This document shows, in pieces, positions 41,854-48,544 of a stretch of DNA of 64,000 nucleotides. A program made the position numbers and the translations under genes. Within the stretch, counting starts at the first letter, position 1; each line of letters begins with the position of its first letter. The stretch comes from Bradyrhizobium sp. 195 (lineage in GTDB: Bacteria > Pseudomonadota > Alphaproteobacteria > Rhizobiales > Xanthobacteraceae): assembly GCF_023101665.1 (NCBI RefSeq), contig NZ_CP082161.1, positions 4,526,001 through 4,590,000 on the forward strand. The letters run 5' to 3'. Under the pieces are notes generated by a model that did no database searches, was not told where the DNA came from, and saw nothing but the letters and a program-made list of their open reading frames with translations.

Positions 41854-42084
41854 ATGTCAGCGTGTCCCTCGTTTGATCGCGCCCAAGAAGAACGAGAACT
41901 GCGACGTGAAATCTACTCGCTGTTTGAAGCCTACTCGGCGAAGGAAGGCGAACGGCGGCTCGCTGAGGTAATGGTCCTCGGATACGGCACGAAGACCGCC
42001 GCAAGAGACCAAGTTCAACTAACTGGGTCTCGACGCAGTCGCCCTAATTCAGCGATCTTTTTCGCTATGGCGTGCACGTCGTAA
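41854..42084 (+). CDS. Doubtful small hypothetical protein (76 aa)
   Basis: A plus-strand frame with a plausible helical stretch (FDRAQEERELRREIYSLFEA, then EGERRLAEVMVLGYGTKTA) but no good ribosome binding site. Its last third overlaps the 3' end of the minus-strand response regulator. The first 50 residues look protein-like and the end does not, so this may be a truncated gene. No other gene is supported in 41454-42014. Confidence 0.3.
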   Translation: MSACPSFDRAQEERELRREIYSLFEAYSAKEGERRLAEVMVLGYGTKTAARDQVQLTGSRRSRPNSAIFFAMACTS

Positions 42085-42407
42085 GGCTTCTCAAATCTCT
42101 CTACCTCTGAAAAGCGATCGGGAAGAACCTCCGCGCTATAGCCCGTGGCAAAAACAAACGGGACGCCGTGCTCGACCAGCTTGTCGGCAATGGAATAGGC
42201 GTGCTCATCGTGTAGGTTGATGTCGAGCACCGCCGCGTCAAACCCGTCCCGATCCACTTGCGCAAGCGCTGCGGAGAGGTCAGCTATCGGACCAACGACC
42301 TGTGCACCTTCCTCGCGGAGCGCCAATTCCAGATCAGCAGCAAGGAAGTATTCGTCCTCAACAATCAGGACGCGACAGGCTCGCCGGTCATGATCCTGAC
42401 AGGCCAC
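42015..42407 (-). CDS. Single-domain response regulator (CheY-like)
   Basis: 130 residues made of one receiver domain: acidic pair in VLIVEDEYFLA, phosphorylation Asp in AAVLDINLHDEHAYS, Thr in VFATGYS and Lys in FEKPYD. No output domain follows. GTG start with GGAGA upstream, inside the 3' end of the preceding 63-residue gene, so the two are translationally coupled. Such stand-alone receivers in rhizobia act as phosphate relays or sinks. No histidine kinase is nearby. Confidence 0.85.
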   Translation of the reverse strand: MACQDHDRRACRVLIVEDEYFLAADLELALREEGAQVVGPIADLSAALAQVDRDGFDAAVLDINLHDEHAYSIADKLVEHGVPFVFATGYSAEVLPDRFSEVERFEKPYDVHAIAKKIAELGRLRRDPVS

Positions 42408-42579
42408 TGCGCTCTCCGATCAAAGGACCATCTGTTCGTCGCGTCGTTTCGAGTTTCAAGAGACGGCCCCTCGTCTCAGCCCTGATCAGCGTCCGCGCTG
42501 CCTTCAACTGTGTCGAATGCTCAATCGCTCTATCGGCGCGGTCAATTAGTTCCTGAGTTTCGAGGCTGAGTGAAACCAT
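42388..42579 (-). CDS. Small hypothetical protein behind structured leader 1 (63 aa)
   Basis: 63 residues, MVSLSLETQELIDRADRAIE followed by a helical, Arg-rich segment (STQLKAARTLIRAETRGRLL). No domain recognised. The ribosome binding site GGGAGG lies inside a hairpin of the upstream conserved leader. The gene overlaps the response regulator start by 20 bases, so it controls or couples the regulator's translation. Confidence 0.65.
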   Translation of the reverse strand: MVSLSLETQELIDRADRAIEHSTQLKAARTLIRAETRGRLLKLETTRRTDGPLIGERSGLSGS

Positions 42580-42660
42580 CGCGTTCCTCCCTTGCACAAG
42601 GCGGGAGCGCGGTCTGTCTCTCAGCCACCGACGCCTACGGACGAGCCTTGGCCGGTGATG
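42580..42660 (-). promoter_or_regulatory. Structured 5' leader, copy 1
   Basis: On the minus strand two helices can be drawn: CACCGGC (42657-42651) with GTCGGTG (42632-42626), and CTCCC with GGGAG inside 42610-42581, which buries the ribosome binding site of the 63-residue gene. A close copy lies at 48374-48460. The copies share an exact 24-base core (GTCGGTGGCTGAGAGAC is part of it) and the GCGCTCCCGCCT arm. This is probably a cis-acting RNA such as a thermometer, a riboswitch-like element or an sRNA target. Confidence 0.65.
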
Positions 42661-42697
42661 AGCGCAAGGTGGGCGCGTTGCGTAGCCTTTGCAAGCG

Positions 42698-42949
42698 CTA
42701 TTTATTTGGAATTTCTGAGGCTTCCGGCGGTCCCGTCGCATCAGGTGTGTAAGGCTCACCGAACGATGGCGACGGCCGGCCGTAGTATCGGCTGTCCGGG
42801 GAGGCCGCAAGCTGTCGGCTCTCGTTGAGAATGCGATACGACCGCTGTATGGCCTCGCGAGCATCAGCGATCATCTCGAAGTCCGCCGGCGTCGTCCTAT
42901 AGATCCGGGAGATTTGGGGGATCGGAGGTTGGGGCGGTGTGTTGGGCAT
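42698..42949 (-). CDS. Small hypothetical protein (83 aa)
   Basis: 83 residues from ATG 42949. A Pro-rich start (NTPPQPPIPQI) is followed by a helix (DFEMIADAREAIQRSYRILN) and a disordered end. No domain recognised. It lies upstream of leader copy 1 on the same strand. Confidence 0.5.
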   Translation of the reverse strand: MPNTPPQPPIPQISRIYRTTPADFEMIADAREAIQRSYRILNESRQLAASPDSRYYGRPSPSFGEPYTPDATGPPEASEIPNK

Positions 42950-43158
42950 GGGTCTCAATCCGTGCACAAAATCGCAAACGCTAAAAACTATAGGGGAGCG
43001 GAACCACAATTCAAGAGTTCGATTTTCATGTGCAATTCCCGTGTAAAACCTCGTTGCTCGGCTCGCGGCCGCTGCGACGAGCTTTCCGCCAACTACCTTG
43101 TAGTGAGCAGATGCAAAAACACTGATCGTGCCAGAAAGATGTACTAAGAGTTGCGAGC

Positions 43159-43797
43159 CTAAGCAGCCCAGCTCCTCAGCGCCGCTTCGGCTCCTGCCTG
43201 GTCTTCCTTGATGCGATAGATCGTTTGTCGGCTCAGCCCCGTTGCAGCGGCAATCTGCGCGACGCCGGCCGACTGCTCCAGCATGTCGCGCACCGTTTCG
43301 AGCTGATCCTTGTCGAACGTCGGCTTTCGTCCTCGATACTTCGTCTCACCCGCTGTCGCCTTAGCGAGAGCGATGCCGCCTCGCTGAGCTTCCTTGATGG
43401 CCTCGGCGTTGGCCTGTGCGGTGGCGGCCATGAAGGCAATGAGCGCGTCCCTGACAGCCTGCTGCATGGGGTCCGTCGTTGCACCGTCGAAGGTGAGCCC
43501 GTTGATGACGGTGCGGATGACGACGCCTCGTCGCATGAACTCCCTGATGGTATCGCACACGTCTCCGTAATTGCGCCCGAGGCGGTCGATCCAGCGAACG
43601 ACGAGGGTATCCCCGGTGCGGAGAATGTCAAAGAGGCGCTTGCCCTCGGGACGTTCCGCGAGGCGAGTGCTGACGCCCGAGACGCCATGATCCGCGAGGA
43701 CGCGGTCGATCTTGAAGCCTGCCGCCTCCGCCCCTATCCGTTGGTGCTCGACGGTTTGATCGATGGTGGAAACTCGCGCGTAGAAGATCGTGGCCAT
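43159..43797 (-). CDS. Serine recombinase/resolvase
   Basis: 212 residues, ATG start. The catalytic domain opens IFYARVST with the nucleophile serine at position 10, followed by QRIGAEAAGF, the LVVRWIDRLGRN motif with conserved arginines and the long E-helix (DALIAFMAATAQANAEAIKE). The C-terminal helix-turn-helix is GVAQIAAATGLSRQTIYRIK. Small resolvase/invertases of this type recombine short sites, often next to their own gene. Repeated TGTCCGTT elements lie directly upstream. Confidence 0.92.
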   Translation of the reverse strand: MATIFYARVSTIDQTVEHQRIGAEAAGFKIDRVLADHGVSGVSTRLAERPEGKRLFDILRTGDTLVVRWIDRLGRNYGDVCDTIREFMRRGVVIRTVINGLTFDGATTDPMQQAVRDALIAFMAATAQANAEAIKEAQRGGIALAKATAGETKYRGRKPTFDKDQLETVRDMLEQSAGVAQIAAATGLSRQTIYRIKEDQAGAEAALRSWAA

Positions 43798-43810
43798 GAA
43801 TGCTCCCGCT

Positions 43811-43925
43811 TGTCCGTTAGGATAATGTCCGTTGTGTATGCTGTCCCTTGGGCGAAGTCAACCCTAACGGACGCGGCTTTCGGTGCCTCTTTGTTTGTCC
43901 GCACGGGCATACCCTAAAGGACACG
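43811..43925. repeat. Repeated TGTCCGTTAGG elements, candidate recombinase sites
   Basis: Within 115 bases upstream of the recombinase gene are TGTCCGTTAGG at 43811, TGTCCGTT at 43827, the inverse CCTAACGGACG at 43863, TGTCCG at 43897 and the inverse CCTAAAGGACA at 43913. Direct and inverted copies around the promoter of a resolvase gene are what a res-type site looks like. Binding is not shown. Confidence 0.5.
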
Positions 43926-43974
43926 CCGAGCCCACCCTTCCGAATGTTCTCCCGCCGCGAACAGAAACGCAGGT

Positions 43975-44068
43975 TGCGGATTCCGACGAAGTCGCCCAGG
44001 CGTACCGATATGAAGTCGCCCGTGGATTCCGAGACGATGTCGCCCACCTTTCCGATTTGATCTCGCCC
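43975..44068 (+). repeat. IS21 left-end repeat array
   Basis: Four diverged copies of the TTCCGA-N-TGTCGCCCA unit, the first forming the terminal inverted repeat. Probable IstA binding sites. Confidence 0.8.
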
Positions 44069-44234
44069 AGCGGCGAGGCGTTCTGGCCGGCTGGTTCTCT
44101 GGCATCGGTCAAGCCGCGTGGTCAATCTGGAATCGCGACTTCGACCTGTTTTTCTTCTTCTGCAGTTGCTGTGGGCATGTGGGCAACGCGATTGCGTTGT
44201 CCAAGCGCAGCGGCATGTCCACAGCGCCACGGGC

Positions 44235-44978
44235 TCAGGTCTTTCGGGCGGATTGCCGGGTTCGGCGCAGGCTCTCACCGGTGAGGTCGAGCCGATGGGC
44301 ATTGTGGACGAGGCGATCGAGCACGGCGTCGGCATAGGTGGGATCTCCAATGAGCAGATGCCACTGGTCCACGGGGAGCTGGCTGGTGACGATGGTGGAG
44401 CGATGACCGTAGCGATCTTCGAGGATTTCCAGGAGGTCGTGACGGGCACCGGCGTCGAGCGGCTCGAGTCCCCAATCATCGAGGATCAGCAGATCGACAC
44501 GGCCAAGGCCGCGCAACAGGCGTGGATGGCGGCCGTCGCCGCGGGCGAGCGCCAGATCGTCGAACAGTCGCGGGACGCGCTGATAGAGCACGGAGCGATT
44601 GTCGCGACAGGCCTTGTGGCCGAGCGCCGAGGCGAGCCAACTCTTGCCAACGCCGGCCGGGCCGCAGATCAGGAGATTGACGTGGTCGTCGATCCAGCGG
44701 CCCTCGACAAGCTTAGCGAACAGCGGGCGGTCGAGACCGCGCGGGGTGCGGTAGTCGATGTCCTCGACGCACGCCTGCTGGCGCAGCTTGGCGTAGCGCA
44801 GGCGAGTGGCGAGCCGTTTGTCGTGCCGCAGCGAGGCTTCACGTTCGAGCAGCAGCGCAAGCCATTCGGTGTGACCGAGGCTTGCGGCCTCACCGGTGGC
44901 TTCGATGTCGGCGAAGGCCTTGGCCATGCCGTGGAGGCCGAGGGCGTTGAGGCGGTCGAGGGTCGGATGGGTGAGCAA
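44235..44978 (-). CDS. istB: IS21-family helper ATPase IstB
   Basis: 247 residues from a TTG at 44978. The DnaC/DnaA-like AAA+ domain carries Walker A ICGPAGVGKSWLASAL and Walker B LLILDDWG, with the sensor region IVTSQLPVDQWH. IstB directs IstA to target DNA. TAGGAGA, overlapping the istA stop, serves as ribosome binding site, which couples its translation to istA. Full length for the family. Confidence 0.93.
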   Translation of the reverse strand: MLTHPTLDRLNALGLHGMAKAFADIEATGEAASLGHTEWLALLLEREASLRHDKRLATRLRYAKLRQQACVEDIDYRTPRGLDRPLFAKLVEGRWIDDHVNLLICGPAGVGKSWLASALGHKACRDNRSVLYQRVPRLFDDLALARGDGRHPRLLRGLGRVDLLILDDWGLEPLDAGARHDLLEILEDRYGHRSTIVTSQLPVDQWHLLIGDPTYADAVLDRLVHNAHRLDLTGESLRRTRQSARKT

Positions 44979-44989
44979 GGGATGATCTC

Positions 44990-46543
44990 CTAATTGTAGT
45001 AGCGCGGTCCGCGGATGTTGGCATGCAGGATCGGCGCATCGTCCGCGGAACGCTGGTGAGCAGAACGCCGATCGAGATTGTTGGCGAGGATCGACTTGAC
45101 CGAGCCATAGGTGCGCGCGCCGATGTCGATTGCCCGCGCAGCCGCGGCGTCCAGCCGTTCGCGCCCATAGGAGGCGGCGAGCCTGAGGATGCCGAGGCAG
45201 GCGCGGAAGCCTTGCTCGGGGTGCGAGCGCTCGTCGAGAATGAGGTCGCACAACGCGCTGGTCGCCGGCCCGATCGCGGCGGCGTCCTGGCGGATACGCG
45301 CGATGGTCCAGCCGGCGTAGCGCCGATGGCTGGAGGCCATGTGCTCCGGCACGGTGGTGTGTTTGTGATTGCCGCTCATGCGCTGATGCGCGGCGATCCG
45401 CTCGCCCTTGTGGAAGATCTCGACGGTACGGGCCGTGAACCGCACCTCGACCTCGGCGCGGGCGAAGCGATGCGGAACGCTGTAGTAATGCTTCTCCACC
45501 TCGACGTGGTAATCGAGACTGACGCGGCGGATCCGCCACTCGGCGAGGACATAGGGGGACGCCGGCAATGGCTTGAGCGCCGGCCGGTCGACCTCCTCGA
45601 GCAACCGGCGGCGTGTCACGCCGAGCCGCCGGATCGGCCGTTCCTCATTCAGCCTCGTGAGCAGTTCGCCGATCGCCGCATTGACCTCGGCCAGGCTGTA
45701 GAAGGTGCGATGGCGCAGGCGGCCGAGCAGCCAGCGCTCGACGATGAGGACGGCCTGCTCGACCTTGGCCTTGTCGCGCGGCTTGCGCGGCCGCGCCGGC
45801 AAGATGGCGGTGCCGTAATGCGCCGCCATCTCCGCGTAGGTACGATTGATCTGCGGGTCGTACAGGCTCGCCTTAATGACCGCGACCTTGGTGTTGTCGG
45901 GCACCACCAGCGCCGGTATGCCGCCGATCGCCGCGAAGGCGCCAACATGGGCGCTGATCCAGTCGGCGAGCCCCTGCGTCCACGTCGCCTGCGCGTAGGT
46001 GAAGCTCGATGCGCCGAGCACGGCGACGAAGATCTGCGCCGTTCTGCGCTCACCGGTCAGGCGGTCGACCACCACCGGCACGCCATCGCCGGCATAGTCG
46101 ACGAACAACTTGTCGCCGGCCGCATGGGCCTGGCGCATCGTCACCGACAGGCGGCCCTCCCAGGCGCGGTAGAGCTCACAGAAGCGCGAGTACCGGTATC
46201 CGCCGGGCTCGGTGGCGATATATTCCTCCCACAGGATCGACAGCGTCACGTGCTTGCGTTTGAGCTCGCGGTGCACGGTCGCCCAGTCGGGCTCGGCGAT
46301 GCGGCGGTGACCCTGACGGTTGCCATTGCCGGTCTTCGCGAACAGGCGAAGTTCCAGAACCGTGTCGGTGACGTCGTCTGGCAACGGCCAGCTCAAGCCC
46401 GCGGCCTCGAACCGCCGGAGCGCCAGGCGCACCGTCGAGGGCGCCGCGCCCACCCGTCGCGCAATCTCGCGGCTCGGCAGCCCGGCCGCCTTCATTCTGA
46501 TCACATCGCGCACACGGCGCATCGCAAGCCTCTCCGTCGGCAT
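44990..46543 (-). CDS. istA: IS21-family transposase IstA
   Basis: 517 residues from ATG 46543. An N-terminal helix-turn-helix (RVRDVIRMKAAGLPSREIAR) is followed by the DDE integrase core: first Asp in LFVDYAGDGVPV, second in VPDNTKVAV, Glu in KAKVEQAV. The C-terminal beta domain includes KHYYSVPHRFARAEVEVRF. All features of an active transposase are present. A long plus-strand frame opposite it is a coding shadow. Confidence 0.94.
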   Translation of the reverse strand: MPTERLAMRRVRDVIRMKAAGLPSREIARRVGAAPSTVRLALRRFEAAGLSWPLPDDVTDTVLELRLFAKTGNGNRQGHRRIAEPDWATVHRELKRKHVTLSILWEEYIATEPGGYRYSRFCELYRAWEGRLSVTMRQAHAAGDKLFVDYAGDGVPVVVDRLTGERRTAQIFVAVLGASSFTYAQATWTQGLADWISAHVGAFAAIGGIPALVVPDNTKVAVIKASLYDPQINRTYAEMAAHYGTAILPARPRKPRDKAKVEQAVLIVERWLLGRLRHRTFYSLAEVNAAIGELLTRLNEERPIRRLGVTRRRLLEEVDRPALKPLPASPYVLAEWRIRRVSLDYHVEVEKHYYSVPHRFARAEVEVRFTARTVEIFHKGERIAAHQRMSGNHKHTTVPEHMASSHRRYAGWTIARIRQDAAAIGPATSALCDLILDERSHPEQGFRACLGILRLAASYGRERLDAAAARAIDIGARTYGSVKSILANNLDRRSAHQRSADDAPILHANIRGPRYYN

Positions 46544-46608
46544 CCAGGGTCCCCTTCGCAAAGCCGAAAGAGTTGACCCTATGGGAGCCAGAAGAGGCCT
46601 CGTCACCC

Positions 46609-46725
46609 GGGCGACATCATCCCGGAATGGTGGGCGACATCATTTCGGAACGGGTGGGCGACTTCAAATCGGAATGGTGGGCGAGATCATCTCGGAATCC
46701 TGGGCGACATCGATCGGAATCCGCA
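46609..46725 (-). repeat. IS21 right-end repeat array
   Basis: Five copies of the same unit as at the left end, in inverted orientation, reaching to the terminal TCGGAATCCGCA. Confidence 0.8.
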
Positions 46726-46732
46726 CGCAGGT

Positions 46733-47150
46733 AAGCGGAGCGGCCATCAACCGAGGTCAAGCGTGGCCTCTCAATGCCTGACGTGGGCCGGGAAGGCATC
46801 GGGGGGCAGAGAGCTGCGAGGCAACGCCCCCACCTCTCAATGCGCTGGGTAGACCAGCGACCGGCCACGGCTGGGGCCGCCCGCGAGGTGCTGGCCGATA
46901 CGCGCTCCCTTGCGCGAAGTGCCGTCGGCGGAGGCCTCATGGCTGGCGTCCCCCCGGCAGGGGGAAACTGGCGCAAGGGCTACCCTCGAATTGCCCTTTT
47001 AGATTTCGGCACTGACTATCCGGGAGCCGATGTCACTGTCTAAGCGCGGGTTGCCGCCCTGGCCCTTCAGTACCTTGACAATGCGGTGTTGGGCGCTTGG
47101 GTCTTGGCCGCTGCGAAGCGTGGAGCCTTGGCACACAACAGCGCCGAGCA
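46733..47150. other. Region of about 420 bases without a supported gene
   Basis: A plus-strand frame at 46774-47043 and a minus-strand frame both stay open but show Arg/Ala-rich shadow-like composition. If the IS21 element and one copy of its target duplication are removed, the minus frame continues across the junction to about 43817, so the IS may have split an open frame, though nothing recognisable is encoded. Confidence 0.35.
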
Positions 47151-47507
47151 TCAGTGAGGCTGTAGAGCGAAGGTCGTGTCGATAGCCTTGCCGAGTTGTT
47201 CGATCATGAACGGCTTTCGCAGCATCGGGCGGGAGCGGAAAGGTTCGGGCAGTCCGGACGCTGCGTAACCGCTGGCCAACAAAAACGGCAGTTTCCGCTC
47301 CTCAAGAGCGCGGACGATGGGCAGAATGAGGTGTCCTCCGACGTTGATATCGAGAATGGCAAAATCGAACTGCGACGCCTCGGCTATCGGCTGAGCGTCT
47401 TCGATGCTCCCGGCTTCGGCGACGACGCGATGGCCAAGCTCTGCGATCATGTCAGCGATCATCATTCGGATGAGCGCTTCGTCTTCGACCAAGAATACAT
47501 CCAGCAC
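47151..47507 (-). CDS. Single-domain response regulator (CheY-like)
   Basis: 118 residues from a GTG at 47507: VFLVEDEALIR acidic patch, phosphorylation Asp in FAILDINVGGH, FLLASGYA in place of the usual Thr/Ser turn, and Lys in LRKPF. No output domain. It resembles the receiver at 42015-42407 in size and layout. A minus-strand GGAAC-N16-CGTT promoter lies 107 bases upstream, which places it in the general stress response. Confidence 0.82.
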   Translation of the reverse strand: MLDVFLVEDEALIRMMIADMIAELGHRVVAEAGSIEDAQPIAEASQFDFAILDINVGGHLILPIVRALEERKLPFLLASGYAASGLPEPFRSRPMLRKPFMIEQLGKAIDTTFALQPH

Positions 47508-47613
47508 TGGTGCACTCGCCCTGTATCTCACGGGCACGGAGAAAAATAAATCGTACGAGTTGCGAGGTGGGCACTCAGCACATCGTTGTACCCAGCACAC
47601 GCTCGGTCGGCCA

Positions 47614-47638
47614 AACGCGGGAGCGGTCACTTTGTTCC
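47614..47638 (-). promoter_or_regulatory. Sigma-EcfG promoter of the response regulator
   Basis: GGAAC, 16 bases, CGTT on the minus strand: a perfect match to the known EcfG consensus, upstream of the receiver gene at 47507. Confidence 0.6.
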
Positions 47639-47661
47639 ACGAATTTTCGTGTAGCCAACAA

Positions 47662-47686
47662 GGCACTCCAGCGCAGACGTCGCGTT
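47662..47686 (+). promoter_or_regulatory. Sigma-EcfG-like promoter, divergent
   Basis: GGCAC, 16 bases, CGTT on the plus strand, one mismatch from consensus, 31 bases before the ATG of the 67-residue gene at 47718. With the promoter at 47614-47638 it makes a divergent pair separated by an inverted repeat (CACGAA-TT-TTCGTG). Confidence 0.45.
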
Positions 47687-47717
47687 TATTCGTGCACTTC
47701 ACAGATGGAGTGGACAA

Positions 47718-47921
47718 ATGAACGCCAAGCGACGGCGCGTGAAGCAGTCCCTGTCACTGTCCGAGAGGTTACACAGAGCTGCCGATGAACTGTTGGAAGC
47801 TGCGCAGCAAATGCCGGACGGCGATGCCAAAGACCAGCTTATTAAGAGGGCTCGCCAGCACGAAGAGGCGGCACGACTGGAGGGATGGCTCTCGTCGCCG
47901 GGCTTGCAGCAACCTGCCTGA
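47718..47921 (+). CDS. Small hypothetical helical protein (67 aa)
   Basis: 67 residues: a basic start (NAKRRRVKQSLSLSERLHRA) and helices (ADELLEAAQQMPDGDAKDQL, then IKRARQHEEAARLEGWLSS). The SLSERLxxAADxLxxxAxxxP pattern is shared by short rhizobial proteins of unknown function. Predicted to be stress-induced from its promoter. TGGAGTGGAC serves as ribosome binding site. Confidence 0.65.
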   Translation: MNAKRRRVKQSLSLSERLHRAADELLEAAQQMPDGDAKDQLIKRARQHEEAARLEGWLSSPGLQQPA

Positions 47922-47965
47922 TTTGCGCTGCCGAGGAAAGCAAACGGGTTCTCTGCTCAACGAGA

Positions 47966-48157
47966 CTATAGGGCGGGCCCTACGTCTGTCCCTTTGGAGG
48001 CCGCCTGATCTTCTGACAGAGGCCGACGCTCAAGCCGATCAGCGAGGACTTTGTACTCCCGCTCCATTTCCTTTAGCGCTTTGCGGGTCTCCTCGTGGCC
48101 CGTCAAAGCCGCCTGAAGGTGACACTCTTGCTGTAACGCTCGATACTTGCGGTGCAT
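47966..48157 (-). CDS. Small hypothetical protein (63 aa)
   Basis: 63 residues, one long charged helix (YRALQQECHLQAALTGHEET, KALKEMEREYKVLADRLERR) with a polar tail. GGGGGAAG precedes the ATG. It begins 18 bases behind the 59-residue gene, probably in one operon under structured leader 2. No function recognised. Confidence 0.6.
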   Translation of the reverse strand: MHRKYRALQQECHLQAALTGHEETRKALKEMEREYKVLADRLERRPLSEDQAASKGTDVGPAL

Positions 48158-48175
48158 GGTAAAACTTCCCCCGGC

Positions 48176-48355
48176 TCAACGGCGCTCGGTGTCGCGGGAA
48201 AATGGTACTTTCGGAAATGGTTCTTGAGTTTTCCGGCCCAAGAATGTGTCCACTGTGGAGCGGTCCAGTATGTCCTTCAAACTGTCCAAGAGTTTGCGAG
48301 TGTCTTCGACCTGCTTGGTAACCGCAGCTCTCCTATCGAATAATATTGGTAGCAC
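48176..48355 (-). CDS. Small hypothetical protein behind structured leader 2 (59 aa)
   Basis: 59 residues from a GTG with GGAAG upstream. The middle is a clear helix (AVTKQVEDTRKLLDSLKDIL, then DRSTVDTFLG). The leader's own hairpin-masked ribosome binding site serves an ATG at 48372 in another frame (31 codons, overlapping), so either that short frame is a regulatory peptide or the main gene has shifted frame. Too short for most gene finders. Confidence 0.45.
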   Translation of the reverse strand: MLPILFDRRAAVTKQVEDTRKLLDSLKDILDRSTVDTFLGRKTQEPFPKVPFSRDTERR

Positions 48356-48373
48356 CGATTGCTTCCGCCCATG

Positions 48374-48460
48374 GCGTTCGCTCCCTGATGATGCAGGCGG
48401 GAGCGCAAATCGGGTCTCTCAGCCACCGACGCCTACGGGCATAGCCGTTGCCGGTGATGC
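48374..48460 (-). promoter_or_regulatory. Structured 5' leader, copy 2
   Basis: Same architecture as 42580-42660: CACCGGC (48456-48450) pairs with GTCGGTG (48430-48424), and CGCTCCC pairs with GGGAGCG within 48406-48374, hiding the ribosome binding site. Loop bases differ between the copies while both helices are kept, which supports a conserved RNA structure. Confidence 0.65.
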
Positions 48461-48544
48461 CGACAGTGTAGCTGACGGTTCCACGATCCGAATTAAACTA
48501 TGATACTTCCAAATCTGAATTAGAACCGTGAGCGGTCAATTAGA

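Follow-up and report, generated by a model that had tools for sequence, protein, structure and literature searches.

Two minus-strand leaders in a 64,000-nucleotide stretch of the genome of Bradyrhizobium sp. 195 (contig NZ_CP082161.1 of assembly GCF_023101665.1, positions 4,526,001 to 4,590,000, labeled G000:C1:4526001-4590000; hereafter the window) belong to a family of mRNA leaders that recurs widely in the genus and in further Alphaproteobacteria. The members share one architecture: from a starting A, they run through a 5'-terminal hairpin (P1), the linker CUGAGAG, and the near-invariant element CUCCCGCC to the Shine-Dalgarno (SD) sequence and start codon of the next gene. We think it probable that they constitute a single cis-acting leader family, combining P1 with a masked SD, that marks a dispersed regulon partly under stress promoters and answers to a factor acting in trans. 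Most RNA leaders, to our knowledge, serve one pathway; the present type, absent from Rfam 15, stands ahead of small genes that are unrelated and for the most part unannotated, in as many as about twenty places per genome. The transcription start, the SD pairing, and the regulation discussed below are all read from sequence or from prediction.

Occurrence of the leader

Both leaders reported by the first-pass annotation are present on the minus strand of the window (Table 1). Each displays, in order, ATCACCGGC, a loop ending in TAGGC, GTCGGTGG, CTGAGAG, a spacer, GCTCCCGCCT, a short loop, and GGGAG, with an ATG 7 to 8 nucleotides past GGAG. The two helices that had been described, a distal one of CACCGGC with GTCGGTG and one of CTCCC with GGGAG over the SD, are found in both copies, and the exact core that they were said to share is likewise present, at 25 bases rather than 24. 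The covariance model that sets the limits and bit scores of both window leaders (R2) gives only weak further matches in the 64-kb window, at E values of 0.12 and worse.

In the genome of origin (9.1 Mb, three contigs), the 25-base pattern, searched with up to three mismatches allowed, retrieves six copies that have at most two, against none for the reversed pattern, and GGAG followed by ATG lies downstream of all six. A covariance model built from these six copies (R1) yields 20 matches there at an E value of at most 1, of which 15 reach 0.03 or better (150 of 3,768 first-look candidates were scored); some of the rows beyond 0.03 are probably false. Nine of these 15 copies lie on the two smaller contigs, C2 and C3, which make up 0.82 of the 9.14 Mb (9%) and would be expected by length to hold 1.35 (binomial P of about 1e-6). 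Searches of Bradyrhizobium genomes and of wider sets recover many more copies with compensatory changes, again ahead of small genes, the outcome that the first-pass annotation had named as supporting its reading. At the level of the genus, 57 of 60 genomes, own included, have a match at an E value of at most 0.01, the richest holding 22. Across the order, R2 matches 14 of 249 genomes and 8 of 111 genera at an E value of at most 1e-4, six of the 14 being of the own genus; this count, obtained under strict filters, is probably a lower bound because so few candidates (19 per genome) were scored. A class-wide search for the exact pattern CTGAGAG-N4/10-GCTCCCGCC gave 28 matches versus 2 for the reversed control; 12 of 385 genomes have it, including two from the own genus, and of the 12 listed places that lie in other genera, nine show a good P1.

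Among named genomes, at least 120 stretches matched, 80 of them with titles. A leader with a good P1 is found in 67 of the 80 titled stretches and in 32 of the 40 others, versus a chance pass rate of about 2.3%; among the failing stretches, L081 comes from a record that ends close to the match, and L087 duplicates another locus. The named copies include ones in Microvirga, Methylobacterium, Reyranella, Mesorhizobium, Rhizobium, and Nitrobacter, and the genera with the leader span several orders of the Alphaproteobacteria. Titles from outside that class number eight among the 80; of these, a metagenome contig labeled Armatimonadetes (L092) does have a full leader with a good P1 and is probably a misbinned alphaproteobacterial contig. 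A blastn search with the copy 2 leader matched two of 72,556 plasmid records (Bradyrhizobium and Methylobacterium) and no phage record. In places, leaders cluster within a few kilobases, as at G036:C1:5792413-5796368, G034:C79:22387-26410, and G010:C1:6950661-6951118.

Conserved segments and RNA structure

Many copies were collected with patterns requiring CTGAGAG and GCTCCCGCC and carry both by construction; hence, conservation was counted on the 52 copies of one alignment (A5) that were found by model and were not seeds. CTCCCGCC is kept in 49 of these 52, and its conservation is thus not a product of the search patterns; the exact 10-mer GCTCCCGCCT is present in 41. By these counts, the anti-SD strand is near-invariant and the linker is conserved with exceptions. 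A subclass ahead of one type of small gene (the KRRR type, see below) has TGAGAACGCC in place of CTGAGAG, as in L019 1501-1578(+), L262 962-1038(+), and L272 273-353(-).

The structure was evaluated on an alignment of 120 copies (A6; 100 loci searched, E value of at most 0.01, a few doubtful rows near the limit retained), which leans toward its stored structure because it was fitted to a model; slid partners, shuffles, and a subset of 58 leaders picked as non-Bradyrhizobium served as controls. In this alignment, 91.7% of cells are paired versus 83.6% in shuffles, and 150 cells have both partners changed versus 32.2, a number that none of 500 shuffles reached; sliding the partners by 1 to 3 columns lowers pairing to 22.6 to 52.9%. 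P1 is paired in 97.0% of cells and has double changes in seven of its eight pairs. The 58-leader subset, in which the P1 arms were chosen by pairing, agrees on the structure, with pairs 2 and 3 of the seven tested not clearly above shuffles. P1 is thus strongly supported as a conserved RNA helix with compensatory changes.

The second helix (P2) joins the anti-SD strand to the SD. Selection made no use of its flanking pair, and a GGAGC allows this pair to be scored in 92 of 182 leaders; it is C-G or T-A in 59 of these versus 38.8 expected, and in 22 of 31 outside Bradyrhizobium versus 12.1 expected, with none of 5,000 shuffles attaining the observed number in either case. A GGAG, AGGA, or GAGG lies at most 22 nucleotides past the anti-SD strand in 140 of 179 leaders (34 when shuffled), and an ATG 12 to 26 nucleotides past it in 148 (30 when shuffled). 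For 167 leaders, the median predicted unpaired probability of the SD is 0.18, compared to 0.30 with the anti-SD strand shuffled and 0.37 with the whole leader shuffled; the SD is less accessible than the first control in 110 leaders and than the second in 123. The SD is therefore, by prediction, sequestered in the leader. In this respect, the earlier description of an unfamiliar-looking leader that masks a ribosome-binding site holds up: the pairing is supported by prediction and by covariation at its flank, and no Rfam 15 family reaches its cutoff in the window.

Promoters and predicted transcription start

When upstream regions are aligned at the first A of the element, -10 and -35 signals and a C at -1 emerge, with little else conserved. 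TAnnnT falls at -12 to -7 in 42 of 179 leaders, whereas no other offset has it in more than 10. The general stress sigma factor, sigma-EcfG, recognizes a consensus of the form GGAAC-N16/17-GTT. A [GT]GAAC-N16/17-GTT motif is present in 21 of the 179 leaders, always starting at -33 to -31, versus 0.36 in shuffled sequence; the strict GGAAC form accounts for eight, and most copies are without an EcfG-like promoter. As a unit, TTGnnn-N16/18-TAnnnT is not clearly enriched (8 of 179 versus 4.0 shuffled, maximum 11). The phasing of these promoter motifs with the element places the latter, by sequence, between the predicted transcription start and the start codon, and some leaders are preceded by motifs that resemble EcfG promoters.

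Genes behind the leaders

As had been noted, small genes follow both window leaders on the same strand (Table 1). The copy 1 protein has no match in Pfam, NCBIfam, or PHROG; in the protein database, it matches its own cluster only, and it is related to the proteins behind the leaders of L153 and L054. For copy 2, the 31-codon frame does overlap a 59-residue gene, as described, but this is best explained by a shifted frame: in L042, a single open frame of 65 residues lies behind the leader and shares 69% identity, over 55 residues, with the 59-residue frame.

Table 1. Parts of the two window leaders and the frames behind them, in window positions
Feature	Positions	Strand	Basis or remark
Copy 1 leader RNA	42582-42659	-	Model R2, 76.1 bits; predicted transcription start at its first base, A at 42659
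Copy 1 helix P1	42625-42658; 42658-42651 pairs with 42632-42625	-	UCACCGGC/GUCGGUGG; sequence and family P1 covariation
Copy 1 conserved linker CTGAGAG	42618-42624	-	Alignments
Copy 1 anti-SD element GCTCCCGCCT	42599-42608	-	Sequence
Copy 1 SD GGGAGG	42586-42591	-	Masked by CTCCC, 5 pairs; predicted unpaired probability 0.30 at 37 C
Copy 1 promoter-like elements	TTGCAA 42694-42689; CACCTT 42671-42666	-	Sequence; family-wide promoter-motif phasing
Copy 1 gene, 63-residue protein	42388-42579	-	End overlaps start of response-regulator frame 42015-42407
Copy 2 leader RNA	48376-48458	-	Model R2, 84.1 bits; first base A at 48458
Copy 2 helix P1	48423-48457; 48457-48450 pairs with 48430-48423	-	Sequence; family covariation
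Copy 2 conserved linker CTGAGAG	48416-48422	-	Alignments
Copy 2 anti-SD element GCTCCCGCCT	48395-48404	-	Sequence
Copy 2 SD AGGGAG	48381-48386	-	Masked by CGCTCCC/GGGAGCG; predicted unpaired probability 0.16 at 37 C
Copy 2 -10-like TACACT	48465-48470	-	Sequence; family promoter phasing
Copy 2 31-codon frame at masked site	48277-48372	-	Frame shifted relative to L042 orthologue
Copy 2 59-residue frame	48176-48355	-	Holds conserved TFLGRKT body of gene

Sorted by crude motif, the 179 products fall into a TFLGRKT type (28), a Crp/Fnr type (27), DUF6894-like proteins (23), small CxxC proteins (20), tiny WLVPP membrane proteins (14), and the KRRR type (10), with 57 that are other or none. Pfam confirms DUF6894, the Crp-type helix-turn-helix, and the response regulator in one example each and finds no family in the other seven proteins of that set. 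Because the genes behind this leader are numerous, mostly small, and unrelated to one another, it defines a dispersed regulon, one largely of small proteins of unknown function, part of which is linked to stress-type promoters. Leaders also occur in pairs, head to head in L007 (1501-1581(-) and 1752-1829(+)), L044, and L048, and as further pairs in L027, L030, and L035. In L007 and L048, TFLGRKT-type and KRRR-type genes diverge, each with its own leader; L044 is similar, with its first frame cut short.

Downstream of each window leader is a frame whose product has a single response-regulator domain, at 42015-42407(-) and 47151-47717(-). This link was rejected for the family: tblastn gives eight response-regulator matches downstream versus 10 upstream of 151 leaders, hence no enrichment, and of the eight, two are the window copies and three are on the opposite strand. 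A KRRR-type small gene at 47718-47921(+) in the window is like the leader-borne ones by eye, with no leader match upstream of it. Between the two leaders, the segment 43159-46606(-) holds a serine recombinase (43159-43797), an IS21-type IstB, and an adjoining frame that by position is probably istA; these genes suggest accessory DNA.

Proposed mechanism and alternatives

Taking these findings together, we propose the following. Transcription would begin at the first base of the element, and the RNA would fold into the 5'-terminal P1 hairpin with its variable loop, leaving CUGAGAG single stranded ahead of CUCCCGCC. The latter would pair with the SD of the next gene and keep translation low. A factor acting in trans, which might be a ligand, a protein, or a small RNA, would read CUGAGAG and CUCCCGCC, and perhaps the GGC of the P1 loop, and would switch the anti-SD strand between SD-bound and SD-free states. 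The SD is mostly paired and is not opened by temperature in the predictions, which is why we favor translational repression by the anti-SD strand, with release by a factor; that strand is also more conserved than SD pairing needs, suggesting that something in trans reads it. The family itself, P1 as an RNA helix, the promoter phasing, and the SD pairing have computational support; repression, switch, and factor are what we infer. Release of the SD would offer a direct handle for finding the signal.

Several observations weigh against this proposal. The folding energies of the two window copies are no better than those of shuffled sequences (z of -0.77 and -0.04), and the case accordingly rests on comparison. 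In that comparison, conservation counted on the pattern-gathered copies is inflated because the patterns demand CTGAGAG and GCTCCCGCC, and among the model-found copies, CTGAGAG is exact in only 34 of 52, the variants being CAGAGAG, CCGAGAG, and TGAGAAC. The core pairs of P2 carry little covariation because the anti-SD side hardly varies, and a second flanking pair gives no signal (53 of 92 versus 53.0 expected). Of the 167 leaders, 57 have an SD at least as accessible as that of the control with a shuffled anti-SD strand, and the median gap of 0.18 versus 0.30 is modest. Further, the 57 of 179 products noted above are outside every recognized group, and copy 2, its gene being frame-shifted, may be decaying.

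The nature of the factor suggests several alternatives, of which a protein-responsive leader is the foremost, if still a tentative one. Here, a conserved alphaproteobacterial RNA-binding protein would hold CUGAGAG beside P1 and modulate access to the SD, a single regulator serving the whole set. That unrelated genes carry a single leader type implies a global factor, and a conserved single-stranded motif next to a covarying hairpin makes a plausible protein site; however, that motif varies in 18 of the 52 model-found copies.

Somewhat more doubtful is a ligand-binding riboswitch with an H-type pseudoknot, in which the GGC of the P1 loop might pair with the GCC of the anti-SD strand while CUGAGAG lines a pocket. 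The loop GGC is present in 172 of 182 leaders versus 81 expected from shuffling, and three leaders offer single compensations: L063 (GAGCG/CGCTC), L155 (AAGC/GCTT), and L059 (CGGCG/CGCCG). Yet permutation gives a p of 0.03 to 0.05 for the 32 noncanonical copies and of 0.32 to 0.53 for the 16 without GCC, so that the pairing of loop and anti-SD strand is only suggestive. A search for leaders with a changed GCC (GCTCCCGC followed by any base but C) retrieved 25 places in 24 of 242 genomes of the genus versus 14 for the reversed control; with a good P1 in only 11 of the 25 loci, these are mostly noise. The genes share no metabolic theme, and the recognition core is small, which also count against a riboswitch. 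One speculative extension, to which we give about the same modest weight, is that the leaders are a new signal-sensing RNA class, possibly a compact pseudoknot of P1 loop on anti-SD strand, that might serve as the shared translational gate of a dispersed alphaproteobacterial general-stress regulon. If so, one RNA device would have been copied onto as many as some twenty genes in a genome, unrelated to one another and for the most part small, and a single global signal would release them all.

Two further alternatives seem to us improbable, and about equally so. A trans-acting small RNA might pair with GCUCCCGCC and thereby free the SD; this would account for an anti-SD strand more conserved than SD pairing requires and would fit the EcfG-type promoters on some copies, as EcfG-controlled GsrN activates katG via its leader in Caulobacter (PMC5869019). 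However, no complementary small RNA was found, the one NepR-bearing locus examined (8.5 kb, not a confirmed stress locus) has neither an EcfG motif nor GGCGGGAG, and P1 would be unnecessary for such a partner. In the other case, the leader would be a passive 5' stabilizer, with P1 at the extreme 5' end protecting the mRNA and P2 setting a low translation rate without any switching. P1 does start at position 2 of the predicted transcript, but the conserved CUGAGAG and CUCCCGCC would be left unexplained.

An RNA thermometer is very unlikely. The first-pass annotation had named a thermometer, next to a ligand-sensing leader and a small-RNA target, and ROSE, first known from Bradyrhizobium, also has its SD in a hairpin near the start codon; in the predictions, however, the median SD exposure of 167 leaders stays at 0.18 to 0.19 throughout 25 to 50 C, with copy 1 at 0.28 to 0.30 and copy 2 at 0.16 to 0.17 across 20 to 60 C, while a ROSE control (L089 943-1031(-), an Aliirhizobium plasmid record) opens from 0.30 to 0.57, and on this prediction, we rejected the idea. 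Least probable of all is a DNA-level repeat (a REP element, an integron site, or a transposable unit) rather than an RNA: several copies cluster, and nine of the 15 own-genome copies are on the two smaller contigs, but conservation upstream of the predicted start is limited to promoter-like positions, the element leads into a suitably spaced ATG in 148 of 179 leaders, and the Br-REP1 and Br-REP2 consensus letters given in PMC5082802 look different by eye.

Comparison with known systems

At the gathering cutoff, Rfam 15 gives no match in the window and, on 18 of the 120 named-genome loci, four matches that all lie away from the leaders, namely two tRNAs, ROSE, and chrB-b. Below the cutoff, snoR117 (E value of 7.2) shares ten bases, on the opposite strand, with the copy 1 leader. 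Identity with ROSE (RF00435), which the first-pass annotation had named for comparison, is not supported: the model is unmatched in the window and in scans at both leaders, while the same search does find ROSE in L089. We therefore rejected ROSE, or any other Rfam family, as the identity of the leaders, none matching at any leader scanned. ROSE is similar in being a rhizobial 5' leader hairpin that masks the SD but differs in sequence and architecture, the present leaders having neither a match to its model nor predicted melting. Riboswitches of the SAM-II and preQ1-II types are translational pseudoknots with SD sequestration. They too are compact leaders, and a hairpin loop possibly contacting the SD-proximal strand would be a shared trait; in contrast, the present leaders reach no Rfam gathering score, their target genes are unrelated, and their pseudoknot is only suggestive.

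Small RNAs of the Cuckoo RNA or CcsR type have CCUCCUCCC loops and lie beside DUF1127 genes. The duf1127-1 leader of Sinorhizobium meliloti is, like ours, a structured leader ahead of a small-protein gene in Rhizobiales, which, according to PMC12218461, acts through an upstream open reading frame and transcription attenuation; here, it is the SD of the gene itself that is masked, and no family-wide search for an upstream frame was made. GsrN of Caulobacter, an EcfG-controlled small RNA that acts on a G-rich target and activates katG (PMC5869019), shares the setting of the general stress response and control via an mRNA leader but acts in trans, and no counterpart was found for the present leaders.

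The multicopy small RNAs BjsR5, BjsR6, and BjsR7 of B. diazoefficiens USDA 110 (PMC5082802) resemble the leaders in having several imperfect copies per Bradyrhizobium genome. Identity with them was rejected, as the sequences at the published start sites are different (genome G429 taken as USDA 110). In that genome, the leaders include ones at 6327775+, 6327461+, 5022175+, 4170641+, 3488652-, and 2430992+. The nearest leader match is 605 nucleotides from BjsR5a, and the fourteen further BjsR positions that were compared have none closer than 34 kb. At L262 (G429 6326500-6328500), two leaders lie 605 and 919 nucleotides downstream of the published BjsR5a start.

Among the papers listed in literature searches, none visibly describes this leader, the contents of the BjrC paper (Madhugiri 2012) not being covered. 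The family would be an addition to RNA databases and would improve the annotation of start sites and small genes in rhizobia. Set against Rfam 15 and BjsR5-7, though not against BjrC sequences, it stands apart as an SD-masking leader whose target genes, unusually, are many, scattered, and unrelated.

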